A stretch of 64,000 nt of DNA from Chitinophagaceae bacterium. Lineage in GTDB: Bacteria; Bacteroidota; Bacteroidia; Chitinophagales; Chitinophagaceae. How positions within the stretch are numbered: position 1 is the first letter of the stretch; each line of letters begins with the position of its first letter. The stretch spans positions 124,001 through 188,000 of the forward strand of contig CANFKC010000004.1 in the NCBI GenBank assembly GCA_947447265.1. Reading direction: 5' to 3'. Shown one piece after another: positions 3,756 to 8,691 of this stretch. The notes under the pieces were generated by a model. That model did not search any database. It saw only the letters and a list, made by a program, of their open reading frames with translations, and had not been told where the DNA came from. A program made the position numbers and the translations under genes.

Positions 3756-4817
3756 CTAGGCTACATTGTCTTCAGGGGATTCGTTCTCTTTCTTCTTATC
3801 GGTATCCGTGAGCCTGTAGCTTTCAGCTGCCGCTCTGCTGCGCATCATTATTTTCTTCGCCAGACGCCGCGGGCCGAGTACTTTCATAAAATCGGCAAAC
3901 CCCAATATTTCCCTTTCCAGCTCAAAATTCCAAACCACCCTGATGGTAAATATCGTGCCATCTTCTTCCACCTTCACCACTTTCTGGCTATGGTGCAGCG
4001 GCTTGGTAATAACGTATGGCGCATGCTCTTTCACTACCTTAAAAACAACCTCTCCGGGCTTTTGGTTAGGCATGCGTGTTGCACCAATTGCATCAGCAAA
4101 ATAAGTGCTGATATCGTAGGGCGCTGCAAGATAATTGGCGTCCGCACTCTCCGTAAAAGTGGTAATCCTGTCAAGCGCCAATATAAAAATATCGTGTGGG
4201 TGGCGGCCCGACCCAAGCACAAACCAGCGGTTGCGGTATTCTTTAAGCAGGTGCGGAGAAAAATTGAACACCTTTGCAAAGGTTGCCTTAAACGACTGAT
4301 AGGTTATGAGCAATACCTTTTTGTTGATAATAGCTTTGTGAATGCTGTCAATGTGCTCCAGCCCTTTTAAAAGTTCATTCTTCTCCATATCGATATACGA
4401 TACCCCATCATGTTGCTGTTGGTACAATTTATCGTCAAGCCGGGTTACCATGTCGTTCAGTTCCTGGAAGTGGCCAAAGCCCTTGAACTGCCGCAGTATG
4501 CCCAGCACTTCGTTAAGCGTATTCAGGTCTTGCTGCGAAAGCGGGATATTGGTTATCGTATACTTCTTGTCTTCATAGCTGTAATACTTTTTGTCAGTCA
4601 CAATTATCGGTGCGCTGTAACCAAGTTTATCGCTGCGCATATTCTGTATATCCAGCTGCACGGTGCGCTTGCTTACGCCACGCTTTATCCCCTCATATTC
4701 ATACAAGGTTTCTGAGCAGGCTTCAACAATGTCTTCCAGTGTCCATTTGCGAAGGCGGTTCTGCAAACAACTATCAATTGTTTTGTAGCGGATAAGGGCA
4801 AGTTTATTTACGGGCAT
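3756..4817 (-). CDS. WYL-domain transcriptional regulator, divergent from the Y-RNA/rtcB unit
   Basis: The 353-residue protein has an N-terminal winged-helix-like DNA-binding part (about 1-75, with KRTVQLDIQNMR resembling a recognition helix). A central helical region follows, then a WYL domain. In the WYL domain SPHLLKEYRNRWFVLG matches the usual PxxLxxYxxRWYLxG pattern. The C-terminal part (about 240-330) resembles the WCX extension. WYL regulators of other systems (PafBC, CapW/BrxR) respond to nucleic acids or nucleotides. The gene diverges from the structured-RNA/rtcB array across a region with two 19-bp palindromes, so the simplest reading is an autoregulated switch for RNA repair, analogous in role to the unrelated RtcR of Proteobacteria. 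That role is inferred from position only. Confidence 0.85.
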   Translation of the reverse strand: MPVNKLALIRYKTIDSCLQNRLRKWTLEDIVEACSETLYEYEGIKRGVSKRTVQLDIQNMRSDKLGYSAPIIVTDKKYYSYEDKKYTITNIPLSQQDLNTLNEVLGILRQFKGFGHFQELNDMVTRLDDKLYQQQHDGVSYIDMEKNELLKGLEHIDSIHKAIINKKVLLITYQSFKATFAKVFNFSPHLLKEYRNRWFVLGSGRHPHDIFILALDRITTFTESADANYLAAPYDISTYFADAIGATRMPNQKPGEVVFKVVKEHAPYVITKPLHHSQKVVKVEEDGTIFTIRVVWNFELEREILGFADFMKVLGPRRLAKKIMMRSRAAAESYRLTDTDKKKENESPEDNVA

Positions 4818-4859
4818 ATGCGTCAGATTGTTTTAATAAACACAATATTCCAAAGTTAG

Positions 4860-4878
4860 TGCGCAATGTATTTGCGCA
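4860..4878. promoter_or_regulatory. Palindromic operator 1 (probable WYL-regulator site)
   Basis: TGCGCAATGTATTTGCGCA is a near-perfect 8-3-8 inverted repeat, 42 nt upstream of the WYL start codon. It shares both half-sites with the palindrome at 4971. The two centres are 111 bp apart. Confidence 0.7.
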
Positions 4879-4970
4879 GGTGTTTTTTGTGAAATTTATT
4901 TTGAAAATTTCAGAATTGATAATCAATGTGTTAGCAACTATTTTTACAGGAAATAAAAATAATTTTCTAC

Positions 4971-4989
4971 TGCGCAATTACATTGCGCA
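4971..4989. promoter_or_regulatory. Palindromic operator 2 (probable WYL-regulator site)
   Basis: TGCGCAATTACATTGCGCA is a perfect 8-3-8 inverted repeat, about 20 nt before the first structured RNA. Its position, just upstream of the -7-like box at 4999, suits an activator or repressor of the RNA/rtcB promoter. Confidence 0.75.
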
Positions 4990-4998
4990 AGCGTGTTT

Positions 4999-5006
4999 CA
5001 CCTTTG
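4999..5006 (+). promoter_or_regulatory. Possible -7 box of the structured-RNA/rtcB transcript
   Basis: CACCTTTG differs from TAnnTTTG at the first base only. A start about 5-7 nt downstream would fall at the 5' edge of the first RNA stem (5011-5013), which supports the assignment. Confidence 0.45.
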
Positions 5007-5010
5007 TATT

Positions 5011-5090
5011 GTTGATGTCGTAGACGGGAGTTACTTCGCAAATATGATTGTTAGAAAACAGAGCTCCTATCGCATATTACTCAACATCAG
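5011..5090 (+). ncRNA. Y-RNA-like stem-loop without tRNA module (element 0)
   Basis: The element carries two hallmarks shared with the three elements that follow: GATGTCGTAG near the 5' end and TTACTTC at 5031-5037. TGATGT (5013-5018) pairs with ACATCA (5084-5089), and GGAG (5027-5030) pairs with CTCC (5064-5067), with irregular sequence between them as in Ro-binding Y stems. The loop (5031-5063) is A-rich and shows no T-arm or D-arm sequence. It may be a stem-only Y RNA or a decayed copy. Its 3' edge touches the 5' edge of element 1, so the elements may be cut from one transcript. Confidence 0.5.
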
Positions 5091-5204
5091 GCTGGTGCCG
5101 TAGCAAAGACTTACTTCCTACGCAGGTTCGAATCCTGCCCGGGTAAAACCGGTAGCTGAGTGGACAAGCAGAAAATGTCTTTACAATTAATTGCCCGGCT
5201 TTTT
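5090..5204 (+). ncRNA. Y-RNA-like tRNA mimic (element 1)
   Basis: The 5' end GGCTGGTGCCGTAG closely resembles the Ro-binding 5' strand of vertebrate Y RNAs (recalled as GGCUGGUCCGA). Lower stem: GGC 5090-5092 with GCC 5193-5195. Inner stem: AAAGAC 5105-5110 with GTCTTT 5177-5182. Inside come the TTACTTC motif and a T arm (GCAGG 5122-5126, loop TTCGAAT, CCTGC 5134-5138). Next is a closed mini-acceptor (CCGG 5139-5142 with CCGG 5149-5152, loop GTAAAA). Last is TA and a D-like arm (GCT 5155-5157, loop with GG, AGC 5167-5169). The Y stem takes the place of the anticodon arm. A T-rich tail follows at 5200-5204. Known YrlA RNAs mimic tRNA in this way; the identity here is inferred from sequence and folding by eye. 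Confidence 0.75.
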
Positions 5205-5227
5205 AAAAAGAGAGCTTTAAAATGAGT

Positions 5228-5330
5228 GGTGTCGTAGAAAAGAAATACTTCGTGTCGCAGGTTCGATTCCTGCCCGGGAAACCGGTAGCTCAGCGGGTAG
5301 AGCAGCAATCATTCTTTTCGCTCTATTACC
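5228..5330 (+). ncRNA. Y-RNA-like tRNA mimic (element 2)
   Basis: GGTGTCGTAG starts the element. The Y stem pairs GAAAAGAA (5237-5244) with TTCTTTTC (5312-5319), and GGT (5228-5230) with ACC (5328-5330). The tRNA-like module follows TACTTC: T arm GCAGG 5257-5261, loop TTCGATT, CCTGC 5269-5273; closed acceptor CCGG 5274-5277 with CCGG 5282-5285 capped by a GAAA tetraloop (GNRA class); TA; D arm GCTC 5288-5291 and GAGC 5300-5303 with loop AGCGGGTA. The D loop keeps the GG pair and the T loop keeps TTC, which in tRNA form the elbow. There is no free acceptor end, so it cannot be charged as an ordinary tRNA. This is the cleanest copy. Confidence 0.8.
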
Positions 5331-5520
5331 TGTTCATTTTATTAGTGAAAAAAATTAGTGAGGCGCGTGTAATGTCAACATCGAACGCAGCATCATTTAG
5401 GCGAGCATATTCCCCGGATTATACTTGCGACTTTGAAATCTTGAATAAGCTTTAGATTGCGACTTCGCGCCTTTGCGTGACCATTAATATCAACTTAATA
5501 ATACCCAAAATACTAAAACT

Positions 5521-6942
5521 ATGAACATGACAACACTGAACGGAAACGACCTTATCGCTATCGGATACCCAACCGGCAAAGCTATTGGACTAGCATTGCA
5601 AATTGCAGAAGTACACTTTACAGACAAAGACGATGAAGCAATTTTGGCAACACTTAAAAGCGTACTGGAAACACCGGAAAATTATGTAACCGACGAAATG
5701 CTTTCCGCGCTGGCTGAAGAACTCATGGTAAAGCCGGAAATCGACACAACAATTCCATTACTGGAAACTGGCCAACCCTATATCTCCTTCGGGCTCGATA
5801 ATATTGAACAAGGCGCTATTGACCAGATGGAGGTAGCCATGCGTTTACCAGTTACCATTGGTGGTGCGCTGATGCCAGATGCCCACCAGGGCTATGGCAT
5901 GCCTATTGGTGGCGTTCTGGCTACCGAAAATTCAATTATCCCGTACGGAGTAGGTGTAGATATCGGTTGCCGGATGGCCCTCTCTGTTTTTGATATACCC
6001 GCAAGCAATTTGCTAGAGAATAAGGCAAAGTACAAAAGGGAGTTAATCGCCTTCACAAAATTTGGAGCCGGGAATACCTGGCGTGGTAACGAGCGTGCTG
6101 AGCACAGCGTTCTAGATAAAGAAGAATTTAACGCTACACCGCTCATAAAAAGCCTGCAGGCTAAAGCAGCAGCACAATTAGGCACATCAGGCGGCGGCAA
6201 CCACTTTGTAGAATGGGGCATTATTGAGTTTGCCGAAGATGATGCTGTATTGAACGTTCCGAAAGGGCAATACGTAGCCTTACTGACCCATTCCGGTTCC
6301 CGTGGTTTGGGAGGCATCCTGGCGGGGCATTATACCCGACTGGCGAAAGAGATCTGCAAACTACCGAAGGAAGCTGCAAACCTTGCTTACCTGGATATGA
6401 ATTCAGCAGAGGGGCAGGAATACTGGCTGGCGATGAACCTGGCTGGCGACTATGCTTCTGCCTGCCATGAAGTGATTCACCAGCGCCTTACCAAAGCTAT
6501 TGGTGGCGAAGTGCTGGCGAAAGTGGAAAACCACCACAATTTCGCCTGGAAAGAAAAGTGGGATGGCAAAGATGTAATTGTGCACAGGAAGGGCGCTACA
6601 CCGGCATCTGAAGGCGTTATGGGTATTATTCCGGGTTCAATGGTTGCACCAGGCTTCCTGGTAAGGGGCAAGGGTAATGCCGGCGCATTGAATTCCGCAT
6701 CGCATGGTGCCGGCAGGCTGATGAGCAGAACCAAGGCAATAAACACCATTAACAGGCAGGAATGGCGGTCCATGTTGCAGGATAATGGCGTGAGCCTTAT
6801 TGGCGCAGGCCTTGATGAAGCGCCTATGGCTTACAAAAACATTGAAACTGTAATGGCAGCGCAAAGCGACCTTGTAGATATTGTGGCGAAGTTCACACCA
6901 AAAATGGTGCGTATGGCTGACGACGGCAGCAGAGAAGATTAA
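5521..6942 (+). CDS. rtcB: RNA-splicing ligase RtcB
   Basis: GTP- and Mn-dependent ligase that joins RNA 3'-phosphate or 2',3'-cyclic phosphate ends to 5'-OH ends; it acts in RNA repair. The 473-residue protein shows the family metal and catalytic motifs in order: MPDAHQGYGMPIGGV, GVGVDIGCRMA (Asp147, Cys150), GGGNHFVEWG, THSGSRGLG, VENHHNFAW, HRKGATPA, and NSASHGAGR, where His395 should carry the GMP adduct. The start could also be the ATG at 5527. It lies 190 nt after element 2 and 8 nt before element 3, all on the same strand. No rtcA or archease gene is nearby. The surrounding Y-like RNAs and divergent WYL gene suggest an inducible repair operon. Confidence 0.97.
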   Translation: MNMTTLNGNDLIAIGYPTGKAIGLALQIAEVHFTDKDDEAILATLKSVLETPENYVTDEMLSALAEELMVKPEIDTTIPLLETGQPYISFGLDNIEQGAIDQMEVAMRLPVTIGGALMPDAHQGYGMPIGGVLATENSIIPYGVGVDIGCRMALSVFDIPASNLLENKAKYKRELIAFTKFGAGNTWRGNERAEHSVLDKEEFNATPLIKSLQAKAAAQLGTSGGGNHFVEWGIIEFAEDDAVLNVPKGQYVALLTHSGSRGLGGILAGHYTRLAKEICKLPKEAANLAYLDMNSAEGQEYWLAMNLAGDYASACHEVIHQRLTKAIGGEVLAKVENHHNFAWKEKWDGKDVIVHRKGATPASEGVMGIIPGSMVAPGFLVRGKGNAGALNSASHGAGRLMSRTKAINTINRQEWRSMLQDNGVSLIGAGLDEAPMAYKNIETVMAAQSDLVDIVAKFTPKMVRMADDGSRED

Positions 6943-6950
6943 AGGACCTT

Positions 6951-7086
6951 TCAGAAGTGCCGTAAAATAAGGTTACTTCGGTTAGAGCGCCGGCAAGAAG
7001 GCCGGAGGTCGAAGGTTCAAGTCCTTCCCGGGTAACCGGTAGCTCAGTATCAAACGCCTTGTTTACCTGTTGCCTTCTGAATTTTT
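6951..7086 (+). ncRNA. Y-RNA-like tRNA mimic with a different permutation (element 3)
   Basis: The closing stem is TCAGAAG (6951-6957) with CTTCTGA (7074-7080); the upper stem is AAATAAGG (6965-6972) with CCTTGTTT (7057-7064). GTGCCGTAA sits between them on the 5' side. After TTACTTC come the 3' half of a D stem (GAGC 6985-6988), an anticodon-like arm (CCGGC 6990-6994, loop AAGAAG, GCCGG 7001-7005), a variable region, a T arm (GAAGG 7011-7015, loop TTCAAGT, CCTTC 7023-7027), a closed acceptor (CCGG 7028-7031, GTAA GNRA loop, CCGG 7036-7039), TA, and the 5' half of the D stem (GCTC 7042-7045). The Y stem therefore enters at the D loop and an anticodon-like arm is kept. A T run follows at 7082-7086. 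Confidence 0.8.
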
Positions 7087-7090
7087 AACC

Positions 7091-7120
7091 AACGACCCGG
7101 CGATGTGCCGGGTCGTTTTA
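7091..7120 (+). terminator. Rho-independent terminator after the rtcB/RNA unit
   Basis: Perfect 11-bp stem AACGACCCGGC (7091-7101) with GCCGGGTCGTT (7107-7117), loop GATGT, short T tail. It separates element 3 from the small gene at 7159 and may be leaky. Confidence 0.8.
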
Positions 7121-7158
7121 TGAAATCACTAATTCATTATAAGTTTAAGCTATTAATC

Positions 7159-7569
7159 ATGACCGACAATACTGAATTAATCAATCTATTTGTCAGCAAT
7201 TTTATTCTAAAGAATAGACGCGAAAGAAGCCGCAATCAGTTAACAGGTAAAAACCGCCGTAAATTCACTAACTGCCTGAACCATACCTGGGACAGTATAT
7301 TCAACATGACCTTATTGCATGAACTCACAAAAAATGAAAGGAGTTATATGGATGTACGGCAAATGTTGAAGTTAAACGACAATGATTGTTGCTATATAAT
7401 CTCAGATGAAAAAATGGACAATACTTTCCTTCCATTTAGCGGTGCTTTTGAAAAGATCTCTTCGGCCAGTTTTGGTTCTTTATTGATCAACCTCGATGCC
7501 AACCGTTTATTCCTCAAAACAGAATGCATGCAAGGCCCCCCGCCGCAATATATTGGCATATCGCACTAA
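7159..7569 (+). CDS. Unknown small basic protein next to the rtcB locus
   Basis: I do not recognise this 136-residue protein. The start is taken at the ATG at 7159 (MTDNTELINLF), because an upstream in-frame ATG lies inside the terminator hairpin. The N-terminal third is basic and helical-looking, with NRRERSRNQL and KNRRKFTNCLNHTW, suggesting nucleic-acid contact. The middle has acidic patches (LKLNDNDCCYIISDEKMD), and the C-terminal part is beta-rich. It has no signal peptide or membrane segment. It follows element 3 on the same strand, so a role with rtcB or the RNAs is possible. It is too small and unlike Ro60/TROVE proteins to be the missing Y-RNA partner. Confidence 0.6.
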   Translation: MTDNTELINLFVSNFILKNRRERSRNQLTGKNRRKFTNCLNHTWDSIFNMTLLHELTKNERSYMDVRQMLKLNDNDCCYIISDEKMDNTFLPFSGAFEKISSASFGSLLINLDANRLFLKTECMQGPPPQYIGISH

Positions 7570-7572
7570 ACA

Positions 7573-7599
7573 ATAAAGCCCGGCATCACCGGGCTTTAT
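7573..7599. terminator. Bidirectional terminator between the small gene and oxyR
   Basis: Perfect 11-bp stem ATAAAGCCCGG (7573-7583) with CCGGGCTTTAT (7589-7599), between convergent genes. Confidence 0.8.
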
Positions 7600-7602
7600 C
7601 AA

Positions 7603-8559
7603 TTATAATCTTGCGCTTTGTATGCGTAGTACTTTTCTGTTTTTCTTTTGCACCCGCATTTTTTCAGGAACAAGTTTCAGTATTTCATCCATTAACGACT
7701 GGAGAATAGAAAAATGCACAAAGTGATCATTGGTTACGAGGCTTATTTCACGCACCGGTTCAGGATCGGTAAAGTAGCGAACGTTCTCAATGCGGTCTTC
7801 ATCAAATTCCGATGTAGACAGCTCCGGCAAAATGGTCAATCCGCCATTCTTGTCCACCATGCGGCGCAGTGTTTCAACATTGCTCGACTCATACCGATAC
7901 GGGCGTTTTGCCTGTAAGCGCTGCACCTGGTCGCTGCAAAGGTCTATGATCTGGTTGCGCATACAATGTCCTTCGTTCAGCAGCCAGATACGGTCAAGTT
8001 CCACATCTGAAGCTTCTATCATTTTCTTTGAAAGCAATTTATCATCGCTCCTGAAATAAGCTACAAATGGCTCATAAAATAAAGGATACTCTTTAATGTC
8101 TTTTGTTTCCAGTGGCGTGCTCAGCAAACCCGCATCAATTTCGTTATTGCGCAAAGCAGTAATTATGCGATGGGTCTCCATCTCATTTACATCGAGGCGT
8201 ATATCCGGAAAATTCTTGGAGTAATTCTCCAGTAAGGCAGGTAAAATATTGGGCGCTACCGTAGGTATTACCGCCAGTTTAAACGTGCCTGAAATTATGT
8301 TTTGCTGTTGTTGTATCAGTTCGTGTATGCGCTCAAATTCTTCCAGCGTTTTACGCACTTGTTCTATAATAACCTTACCCATAGCGGTTATCTCAATAGG
8401 ATGCCTGCTACGGTCAAATATTTTCACGCCTAACTCTTCTTCCAGCTTTTGTATTTGAAGGCTAAGGGTTGGCTGGGTTACAAAACTTTTTTCTGCGGCT
8501 GCAACAAAGCTCTTGTAAGTAGCTAGTGCAATGGCGTATTCAAGTTGTATTATTGTCAT
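7603..8559 (-). CDS. oxyR: OxyR-type LysR regulator, peroxide sensor
   Basis: LysR-family activator of peroxide defence genes. The start at 8559 (MTIIQLEYAIAL) was chosen over the 8592 ATG because LysR proteins begin just before the helix-turn-helix. The protein then has 318 residues: winged helix-turn-helix (about 1-60, with KSFVTQPTLSLQIQKLEEELG), a linker helix, and an effector domain. NEGHCMRNQIIDLCS places cysteines at residues 199 and 208, the same spacing and numbering as the redox cysteine pair of E. coli OxyR. The nearest genes are not known OxyR targets. Confidence 0.92.
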   Translation of the reverse strand: MTIIQLEYAIALATYKSFVAAAEKSFVTQPTLSLQIQKLEEELGVKIFDRSRHPIEITAMGKVIIEQVRKTLEEFERIHELIQQQQNIISGTFKLAVIPTVAPNILPALLENYSKNFPDIRLDVNEMETHRIITALRNNEIDAGLLSTPLETKDIKEYPLFYEPFVAYFRSDDKLLSKKMIEASDVELDRIWLLNEGHCMRNQIIDLCSDQVQRLQAKRPYRYESSNVETLRRMVDKNGGLTILPELSTSEFDEDRIENVRYFTDPEPVREISLVTNDHFVHFSILQSLMDEILKLVPEKMRVQKKNRKVLRIQSARL

Positions 8560-8691
8560 AATGAGTAGTAAATTTACTGTACAAACATGCAAATTTGTTG
8601 TGCCGTTTTGTATTTACTTAGTTGAAGGTATATAAGTTTAACTTAAAATACAATTTCCAGTTACAAATCACAATTGTGTGACACTGATCGT

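Follow-up and report, generated by a model that had tools for sequence, protein, structure and literature searches.

The rtcB locus described here very probably belongs to an RNA-repair regulon of Ro60, Y RNAs and RtcB that is split in two, of which it forms one half, and the four structured elements around rtcB (E1-E4) are almost certainly Y RNAs. The locus lies in a 64,000-nucleotide stretch of DNA from a Chitinophagaceae bacterium (the window), and its features are, in order along the DNA:

3756..4817, minus strand: WYL-WCX transcription regulator, 353 aa (PF13280 and PF25583 above cutoff), divergent from the RNA/rtcB unit
4860..4878, no strand assigned: operator-like palindrome 1, TGCGCAA-N5-TTGCGCA, on the WYL side (sequence pattern)
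4971..4989, no strand assigned: operator-like palindrome 2, 13 bp upstream of the TTTG of the predicted Y RNA/rtcB promoter (sequence pattern)
5003..5006, plus strand: TTTG of the predicted Bacteroidota -7 element (sequence and conserved offset)
5010..5086, plus strand: Y RNA E1, Ro60-type stem and both motifs, no recognised tRNA-like cap (model R1 37.3 bits; descriptor)
5089..5201, plus strand: Y RNA E2, Ro60-type stem, T arm, closed acceptor stub, weak D arm (R1 65.9 bits, RF02553 34.4 bits)
5220..5339, plus strand: Y RNA E3, Ro60-type stem, T arm, closed acceptor stub, D arm, in YrlA order (R1 91.1 bits, RF02553 44.3 bits)
5521..6942, plus strand: rtcB, RNA ligase family, 473 aa (PF01139, E 1.9e-81)
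6950..7081, plus strand: Y RNA E4, a permuted tRNA beginning 8 nt past the rtcB stop codon (R1 62.0 bits, RF02553 26.0 bits)
7093..7120, plus strand: GC-rich hairpin followed by TTTT, a possible terminator of the unit (read from the sequence)

The hairpin at 7093..7120 was absent from the output of the terminator scan, which demands five T. Two further frames, one of 154 aa (7105-7569) and a LysR gene (7603-8592), were dropped as parts of the unit, since neither had a match among 80 rtcB loci.

An initial annotation had described four structured elements with shared motifs around rtcB. The motif GTGYCGTAR...TTACTTC was found at 5015, 5095, 5229 and 6957, with ATACTTC as the variant in E3. When the whole genome was scanned with the motif only, the result was unspecific (15 places, compared to 9 with the reversed pattern). 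Therefore, we used stem descriptors, which set the limits of E1-E4, and covariance models. Nine of the 15 places are Y RNAs, and the remaining six were rejected because their R1 scores did not exceed 11.3 bits. In 1.56 Mb of locus DNA, selected for rtcB or Ro60, the stem descriptor gave 202 matches, compared to 8 in reversed and 6 in shuffled sequence. Model R1 was built from 28 Y RNAs, all from other genomes, and nevertheless detected E1-E4 (37-91 bits) plus six elements at Ro60. E1 was not found by R1 under default filters and was recovered only with the filters off (E 2e-9 in a search of 2.3 kb). At gathering level, Rfam gave zero matches in the window; in a relaxed search, the YrlA model RF02553 detected E3, E2 and E4, all below the gathering cutoff of 69 bits, and E1 was left unmatched.

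These results bear out the motif-sharing elements, their identity as Y RNAs, their linkage to rtcB and their mimicry of tRNA. The claim that three of the four contain tRNA-like modules needs qualification. A T arm, a closed acceptor stub and the start of a D arm do recur in three of them, E2, E3 and E4. The YrlA architecture (a basal 5'-3' stem, then T arm, closed acceptor stub and D arm) is present in E2 and E3; E4 has another order, and E1 is without such a cap. E4 is joined to the Ro60 stem via its D loop and has a hairpin at the place of the anticodon arm, a T arm and a closed acceptor stub. The palindromes at 4860 and 4971 also belong within the described unit, in which the divergent WYL gene is followed by the two palindromes, E1-E3, rtcB and E4.

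The inference of a system without Ro60 fails for the genome as a whole. Ro60 (PF05731) is encoded on another contig (C52), away from rtcB, with six Y RNAs downstream of it. The ten Y RNAs of the genome thus occupy two unlinked places (E1-E3/rtcB/E4, and Ro60 plus six), in agreement with the high copy number noted initially. A Ro60 gene in the same operon, as in Salmonella, is missing from the rtcB locus; the copy on C52 has a matching promoter. In 16 of 80 relatives, Ro60 lies inside the rtcB locus; the joined order in relatives is WYL/Ro60/Y RNAs/rtcB. The missing rtcA, by contrast, extends from the window to the genome (98.8% complete), in which PF01137 (RtcA cyclase) was not found. The same was true for PF06956 (RtcR, a CARF-containing sigma-54 activator); a WYL gene stands beside rtcB in its place. 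Both searches were positive in the E. coli control.

Among relatives, the RNAs follow Ro60. The strict Y motif was present in 16/16 rtcB loci with Ro60, compared to 1/64 without, and Y RNAs lie downstream of Ro60 in 32 of 34 further Ro60 loci; none was found at L134, where the contig ends, or at L136. Of these 34 Ro60 stretches, no more than 16 showed rtcB. In 244 genomes of the family, a full-length R1 match of at least 60 bits occurred in 17/17 genomes with TROVE and in 1/227 others, with eight of the 17 having supplied sequences to R1 and nine having supplied none. The one exception, G478, has Y RNAs and no TROVE match. Many lower-scoring R1 matches covered part of the model (positions about 31-112), a pattern that ordinary tRNA genes nearby could produce. 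TROVE was found in none of three other genomes drawn from the same genus. The helices covary, with double changes at 27/33 pairs in one class of these RNAs (class A, see below) and at 16/25 pairs in another (class B).

With respect to regulation, rtcB has a divergent WYL homologue upstream of it in 62 of the 80 Bacteroidota loci. In 56 of 79 loci, the palindrome (consensus TRCGCA-N7-TGCGYA) adjoins this divergent gene, giving 103 sites compared to 1.8 expected; it is missing from the other 23 WYL upstream regions. In the genome under study, the exact operator occurs in five places, two in the gap between WYL and E1, two in front of Ro60 and one at C10:40592; the last was discarded, as it falls within a coding frame. 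The reversed pattern occurs nowhere in this genome. The Ro60 promoter on C52 closely matches the one preceding E1 in its palindrome, 13-bp spacing and TTTG, and the two loci have 20 identical letters after the operator. In loci with two sites, the operator spacing clusters at about 101, 112 and 123 bp, and TTTG, which we take to be the Bacteroidota -7 element, follows 13-14 bp past site 2 in 49 of 50 cases. On the WYL side, TTTG stands at no constant distance across loci, and in 23 of 50 none was found. A scan for sigma-70 promoters gave no excess (5 matches, compared to 5.3 in shuffles). The start of E1 would lie, judging from the TTTG position, approximately at the predicted transcription start. 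The matching DNA sites suggest one regulator over the rtcB and Ro60 units, and their position makes control of the Y RNA/rtcB unit by WYL likely. Among Ro60 loci, counting the one studied here, the operator was missing within 700 bp in 13/18 loci without an adjacent WYL gene and in 3/17 with one. Together with the 23 WYL regions lacking the palindrome, this indicates that WYL control via the palindrome is not universal.

The upper parts, or caps, of the Y RNAs fall into several topologies. The commonest full tRNA-like type, class A, accounts for 65 of 221 candidates. It is a permuted tRNA with its opening in the anticodon arm and a closed acceptor end, and its consensus fold has the YrlA order. 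Of 64 distinct caps in this class, 42 retain a stretch with the anticodon-loop signature; T33 is present in 32 of these 42 (11.1 in shuffles) and a purine at position 37 in 41 (21.9 in shuffles). Class B, comprising E4 and ten relatives, is opened in the D loop. When folded alone, 7 of the 11 caps, including E4, formed a four-helix junction, but cap energies were only mildly better than those of shuffled sequences, with z between 0.3 and -3.3. In the MAFFT consensus of class B, the anticodon arm is missing; the hairpin at that place has a mean of 5.5 pairs compared to 4.2 in shuffles, and that of E4 taken alone has a modest edge over shuffles. In class N (four RNAs), the cap tentatively replaces the acceptor stem; the minimum-energy fold has three arms in L155, and not in L142, L144 and L150. 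A recognised T arm is missing in E1 and in 60 of the 221 candidates. We gave up the idea of the T arm as the one part that is never lost, as the class definitions themselves demand it.

How such a system might work can be outlined from the sequences and from Ro60 biology. The divergent WYL regulator would bind the paired palindromes and switch both transcripts together, possibly in response to RNA damage, as the initial annotation had proposed. E1-E3, rtcB and E4 would be transcribed together, starting at about 5013 and ending at the 7093 hairpin. In each Y RNA, Ro60 presumably binds the basal stem, which carries TGYCGTA and TTACTTC and is conserved together with these motifs. The upper part would be an exchangeable, often tRNA-shaped handle. 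We hypothesize that the handles recruit proteins, most likely bringing tRNA-binding ones to Ro60: an exonuclease such as PNPase, tRNA-modifying enzymes and perhaps RtcB. Nicked tRNAs and other damaged RNAs would thereby be sorted to repair or decay, with RtcB rejoining broken ends. The Y RNAs may also scaffold or mimic the substrate of RtcB, as the initial annotation had proposed.

Could the elements instead be tRNA gene copies in decay, or a tRNA-like array that arose by chance and is unlinked to Ro60 and rtcB? When the caps from the window and from the Ro60 locus were compared by BLAST with the 38 tRNAs of the same genome, short T- and D-arm matches to E2 and E3 were among the matches listed, and the partial lower R1 matches are of the kind that ordinary tRNA genes could give. 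However, the covariation in class A and the co-occurrence with TROVE make this explanation extremely unlikely. The shared Ro60-type stem also speaks against it, as does ARAGORN, which found no tRNA within the window. Alternatively, the RNAs could act in cis, as a leader or attenuator of the rtcB transcript that senses the state of tRNA, without being bound by Ro60. This would fit E1-E3, which lie between promoter and rtcB, E4 immediately past the stop codon, and the tRNA-like RNA upstream of slipin in loci without Ro60 (see below). It is nevertheless highly improbable: both in this genome and in the 32 of 34 loci the RNAs lie downstream of Ro60, where a role as Ro60 leader is impossible, the strict motif is nearly confined to rtcB loci with Ro60, and fewer than half of the fetched Ro60 stretches showed rtcB.

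It is improbable, too, that the palindrome serves another regulator and that WYL is a bystander without control of the Y RNAs. The Ro60 loci lacking the operator would agree with this; the sites in the WYL-adjacent gap of most loci, their clustered spacing and the constant distance to TTTG on the operon side argue for a WYL operator. A fourth explanation concerns the caps, which could serve not as tethers but, carried by Ro60, as decoys for anticodon nucleases or for other toxins that target tRNA. The anticodon-loop signature kept in class A would be consistent with decoys, and a competitive inhibition of the nuclease by YrlA is among the possibilities raised by Hughes et al. 2020 (excerpt of PMC7790460). 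However, the class A chain exits within the anticodon loop or stem, and therefore the usual cleavage site is not intact; moreover, loops are short in several class B caps, and YrlA fragments were not detected in Salmonella, according to the same excerpt. We thus regard decoys as rather unlikely and retain recruitment of proteins to Ro60 as our working hypothesis for the caps.

In sister operons, slipin replaces Ro60, and a different RNA with two tandem closed-acceptor tRNA-like domains lies upstream of slipin. This suggests that tRNA-like RNAs are wider in repair operons, beyond Ro60. A broader reading is possible, which we put forward tentatively: RNA-repair operons of Bacteroidota might carry sets of RNAs that show the tRNA body opened at varied points, chiefly in the anticodon arm, the target of tRNA-cutting toxins. 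Each RNA would be borne by its operon partner (Ro60, slipin or a 746-aa protein), and jointly they would act as a panel that mimics broken tRNAs and thereby steers RtcB repair or decay; the slipin-linked RNA would then be a new, Ro60-independent family. The AlphaFold model of the 746-aa protein (mean pLDDT 58.3) was too poor for a structure search.

The regulon bears on the question of what bacterial Ro60 and Y RNAs do beside RtcB. As Ro60, ten Y RNAs and RtcB are tied to one predicted WYL operator, in a genome lacking RtcA and RtcR, the whole unit could be tested via one regulator. The caps are natural experiments: the same stem meets the tRNA body at its anticodon arm, at its D loop or (tentatively) at its acceptor stem, so that partners can be sorted by the arm that each cap lacks.

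What we describe is the known Ro60-Y RNA-RtcB repair system in a version that comes from Bacteroidota, is linked to WYL and lacks both RtcA and RtcR. The following comparisons draw on excerpts of the cited sources. With Salmonella rsr-yrlBA-rtcBA (PMC7790460) it shares a Ro60 homologue, rtcB and Y RNAs with T arm, acceptor stub and D arm. It differs in its WYL neighbour and palindromic operators, in the absence of RtcR and RtcA from the genome, in the number of Y RNAs (ten, compared to two), in the division of the genes between two loci and in the several topologies of its caps. The Rsr/Y RNA/PNPase complex of Deinococcus radiodurans (RYPER; reviews PMC8394870, PMC4726728) likewise has a Ro60 homologue and a Y RNA in which a basal Ro60 stem carries an upper part that binds effectors, whereas here the Y RNAs are many, their caps are varied and a role of PNPase is only proposed. 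Another member of the Bacteroidota, Bacteroides thetaiotaomicron, has a Ro60 RNP in which Y RNAs co-precipitate with Ro60 (Greiling et al. 2018, via the review PMC11277228). In Anabaena, deletion of trcR raises rtcB and a slipin gene, and TrcR also represses a tRNA operon (PMC10272220). Common to both cases are rtcB, slipin and a regulator other than RtcR; TrcR is described as belonging to another regulator family, and the excerpt of PMC10272220 mentions no Ro60 or Y RNA. Relative to the known Ro60-Y RNA-RtcB system, the newer point is the RNA caps.

The four structured elements that the initial annotation had placed around rtcB, three before the gene (E1-E3) and one after it (E4), are present at those positions. 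Each consists of a basal stem of 6-10 bp with TGYCGTA on the 5' side, a second stem, TTACTTC (ATACTTC in E3) and a cap, the upper part of the RNA above the Ro60-type stem. A stem descriptor was run on 1.56 Mb of locus DNA, all of it picked for rtcB or Ro60, and matched 202 places; this DNA gave 8 matches when reversed and 6 after shuffling. Among relaxed Rfam matches, YrlA was the sole credible known family, with scores under the gathering score. A covariance model (R1) trained on 28 Y RNAs, all from other genomes, recovered E2, E3, E4 and six copies at Ro60 in the same genome; E1 was recovered solely with filters off (37.3 bits), and six further motif places reached at most 11.3 bits. A 154-aa reading frame 3' of E4 (window 7105-7569) has no Pfam or NCBIfam match and was found in none of the best 80 of 589 rtcB loci.

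The reported absence of Ro60 is true of the window but not of the genome. Contig C52 carries an open frame of 505 aa with a TROVE match (PF05731) above cutoff and a vWA_Ro60 match just below its cutoff, followed 3' on the same strand by six Y RNAs. RtcA, also described as absent, and RtcR are missing from the genome as a whole. Since E1-E2-E3-rtcB-E4 lie in the window and Ro60 with its six Y RNAs elsewhere, the window represents one half of a split system. TROVE was not found in the other three genomes drawn from the same genus, so the system is patchy.

For comparison with relatives, we used the best 80 of 589 Bacteroidota rtcB loci found. A WYL homologue lies divergent upstream in 62 of these 80. 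Ro60 is located upstream of rtcB in 16, and between WYL and rtcB in all 13 where WYL was seen. The strict Y motif was present in 16/16 Ro60-bearing loci versus 1/64 others; this single locus (L008) is on a contig that begins at rtcB, and in L015, whose contig is likewise cut, a Y RNA departs from the motif at one position. E4-like RNAs lie 3' of rtcB in L007, L008 and L015. A TROVE match turned up in 18 of 395 genomes from the class, in 17 of 244 from the family and in 4 of 13 from a different family. Y RNAs were observed downstream of Ro60 in 32 of 34 fetched Ro60 loci (up to seven each, mostly less than 3 kb away), the remaining two being L134, cut by the contig end, and L136, with none. Of the 34, 17 have an adjacent WYL, and in 16 the fetched stretch includes rtcB. 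Among the 244 family genomes, R1 scored at least 60 bits in 18: G478 and each of the 17 with TROVE, eight of which had donated sequences to R1 and nine none. At E 0.001 or better it matched 84 family genomes, the lower-scoring matches being mostly partial; neighbouring tRNA genes could be their source. In G478, one stretch (L199) holds several Y RNAs and rtcB; Ro60 is missing from the stretch, and TROVE matched nowhere in the genome. Two extra places in G506 (L200, L201), both away from its Ro60, carry Y RNAs.

A putative operator is common to both halves. Allowing one mismatch at most, 56 of 79 loci carry the palindrome TRCGCA-N7-TGCGYA upstream of WYL, 47 of them at least twice; it is missing from 23, many of them Flavobacterium. 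In total, 103 sites were observed in these regions, against an expectation of 1.8 derived from the remaining locus DNA. Exactly two sites are present in 50 loci, the window among them; the two lie 100-102, 111-114 or 123 bp apart (136 bp in one locus), in steps of about one helical turn. TTTG follows site 2 by 13-14 bp in 49 of the 50; no such rule was found on the WYL side. In the genome, the exact palindrome has five occurrences: one pair lies between WYL and E1, another pair before Ro60, and the fifth within a coding frame. The reversed pattern has none. After the operon-side site, the window and C52 Ro60 loci have 20 letters in common in register, GTGTTTCACCTTTGTATTGT. Before Ro60, the palindrome was found in 14/17 loci with adjacent WYL versus 5/18 without (own genome included). 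We take the TTTG before E1 to fit the Bacteroidota -7 element, in which case the transcript would start at E1.

The caps are often tRNA-like. Among 221 candidate Y RNAs, of which four (in L028, L062, L083 and L136) are probably false, we counted 65 class A, 11 class B and 4 class N caps; a further 81 have just a T arm and 60 lack one. Among 4,420 shuffled caps, classes A and B never arose, class N arose once and the T-arm-only type 13 times. Class A caps comprise a T arm, a closed acceptor stub and a D arm, with double changes on 27 of 33 consensus pairs. The anticodon arm was assessed in the 42 of 64 distinct class A caps with at least 17 letters 5' of the T arm. T33 is present in 32 (shuffle mean 11.1) and a purine at 37 in 41 (21.9 in shuffles), and on average 3.36 of five anticodon-stem pairs form, compared to 2.03 for shuffled sequences and 2.05 after re-dealing the partners. 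These features indicate a tRNA opened in the anticodon loop, its acceptor end closed. Loops such as CTTTTAA, CTGTTAA, CTCATAA and CTGAAGA correspond to different anticodons. The other 22 distinct caps, E3 among them, retain less of this arm.

Class B caps, including E4, are tRNAs opened in the D loop, with double changes on 16 of 25 consensus pairs; L141 alters both sides of a D-stem pair. The consensus of these 11 RNAs does not contain the anticodon-arm hairpin, 7 of 11 caps folded alone form a four-helix junction, and the hairpin averages 5.5 pairs versus 4.2 shuffled; the arm is therefore likely real, if less firmly shown than the rest. Class N caps, from four genomes, are tentatively read as D, anticodon and T arms ordered as in a normal tRNA and set on the Ro60 stem in place of an acceptor stem:
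L142:10420-10541, Y RNA with class N cap
L144:5470-5597, Y RNA with class N cap
L150:8508-8626, Y RNA with class N cap
L155:8335-8454, Y RNA with class N cap

WYL-rtcB units lacking Ro60 often contain slipin, with or without RlaP-family genes; slipin is found in 37 of the best 80 of 589 loci, and L041 has both slipin and Ro60. Before slipin lies a separate conserved RNA of two tandem domains, the first with T arm, closed stub and D arm, the second with T arm, stub and anticodon-like arm, and with double changes on 28 of 39 pairs. Examples, with others among L005-L084, are:
L011:2546-2721, slipin-linked RNA
L039:2544-2725, slipin-linked RNA
L077:4424-4589, slipin-linked RNA

Its covariance model (R2), built from 20 of the same 37 loci, scored at least 69 bits in 36/37 slipin loci versus 0/43 others; the remaining one, L009, reached 53 bits, no higher than some Y RNAs (up to 57). 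In L036, L073 and L077, slipin is 3' of rtcB and the tandem RNA lies between them. Class-wide, slipin was within 1.5 kb at 15 of 17 loci scoring at least 80 bits, a set overlapping the rtcB loci (at least G101 appears to be the same genome as L049). The other two have WYL and rtcB (L216) or nothing recognised (L218), and the next two matches, 75 and 68 bits, are at Ro60. ARAGORN found no tRNA at 37 places of this type, and Rfam gave weak tRNA matches in 6 of 12 slipin loci searched. This tandem closed-acceptor RNA is possibly a new family. RlaP-family genes (RNA repair pathway DNA polymerase beta family) also occur in pairs within the WYL-slipin-rtcB unit, e.g. L011:4133-5981.

A third RNA type, with motifs AGGTCAA...TTACTTC, precedes a 746-aa protein in 8 of the best 80 of 589 loci, up to five per locus; the one protein scanned had no Pfam match. 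By eye, one of these RNAs looks like a non-permuted tRNA with a stem inserted in the anticodon loop:
L048:3116-3500, third-type RNAs
L053, L059, L060, L063, L068, L080 and L084, further third-type RNAs

With gene content, RNA anatomy, covariation, co-occurrence and the common putative operator established, a mechanism can be proposed in which WYL would respond to RNA damage, and the caps may recruit tRNA-binding proteins to Ro60 or occupy such proteins. In the literature searched, which did not extend to the main Y RNA papers, we did not meet the probable WYL control through this putative operator, the split regulon, D-loop-joined and anticodon-keeping caps, or the slipin-linked RNA. The association of Ro60, Y RNAs and rtcB is already known. 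As background, RtcB joins RNAs bearing 3'-phosphate or 2',3'-cyclic phosphate ends (PMC7824862), the Salmonella operon is turned on by tRNA fragments via RtcR (PMC7790460), rtcB and slipin rise in Anabaena upon TrcR deletion (PMC10272220), and YrlA, which mimics tRNA, tethers Rsr to PNPase (PMC8394870).
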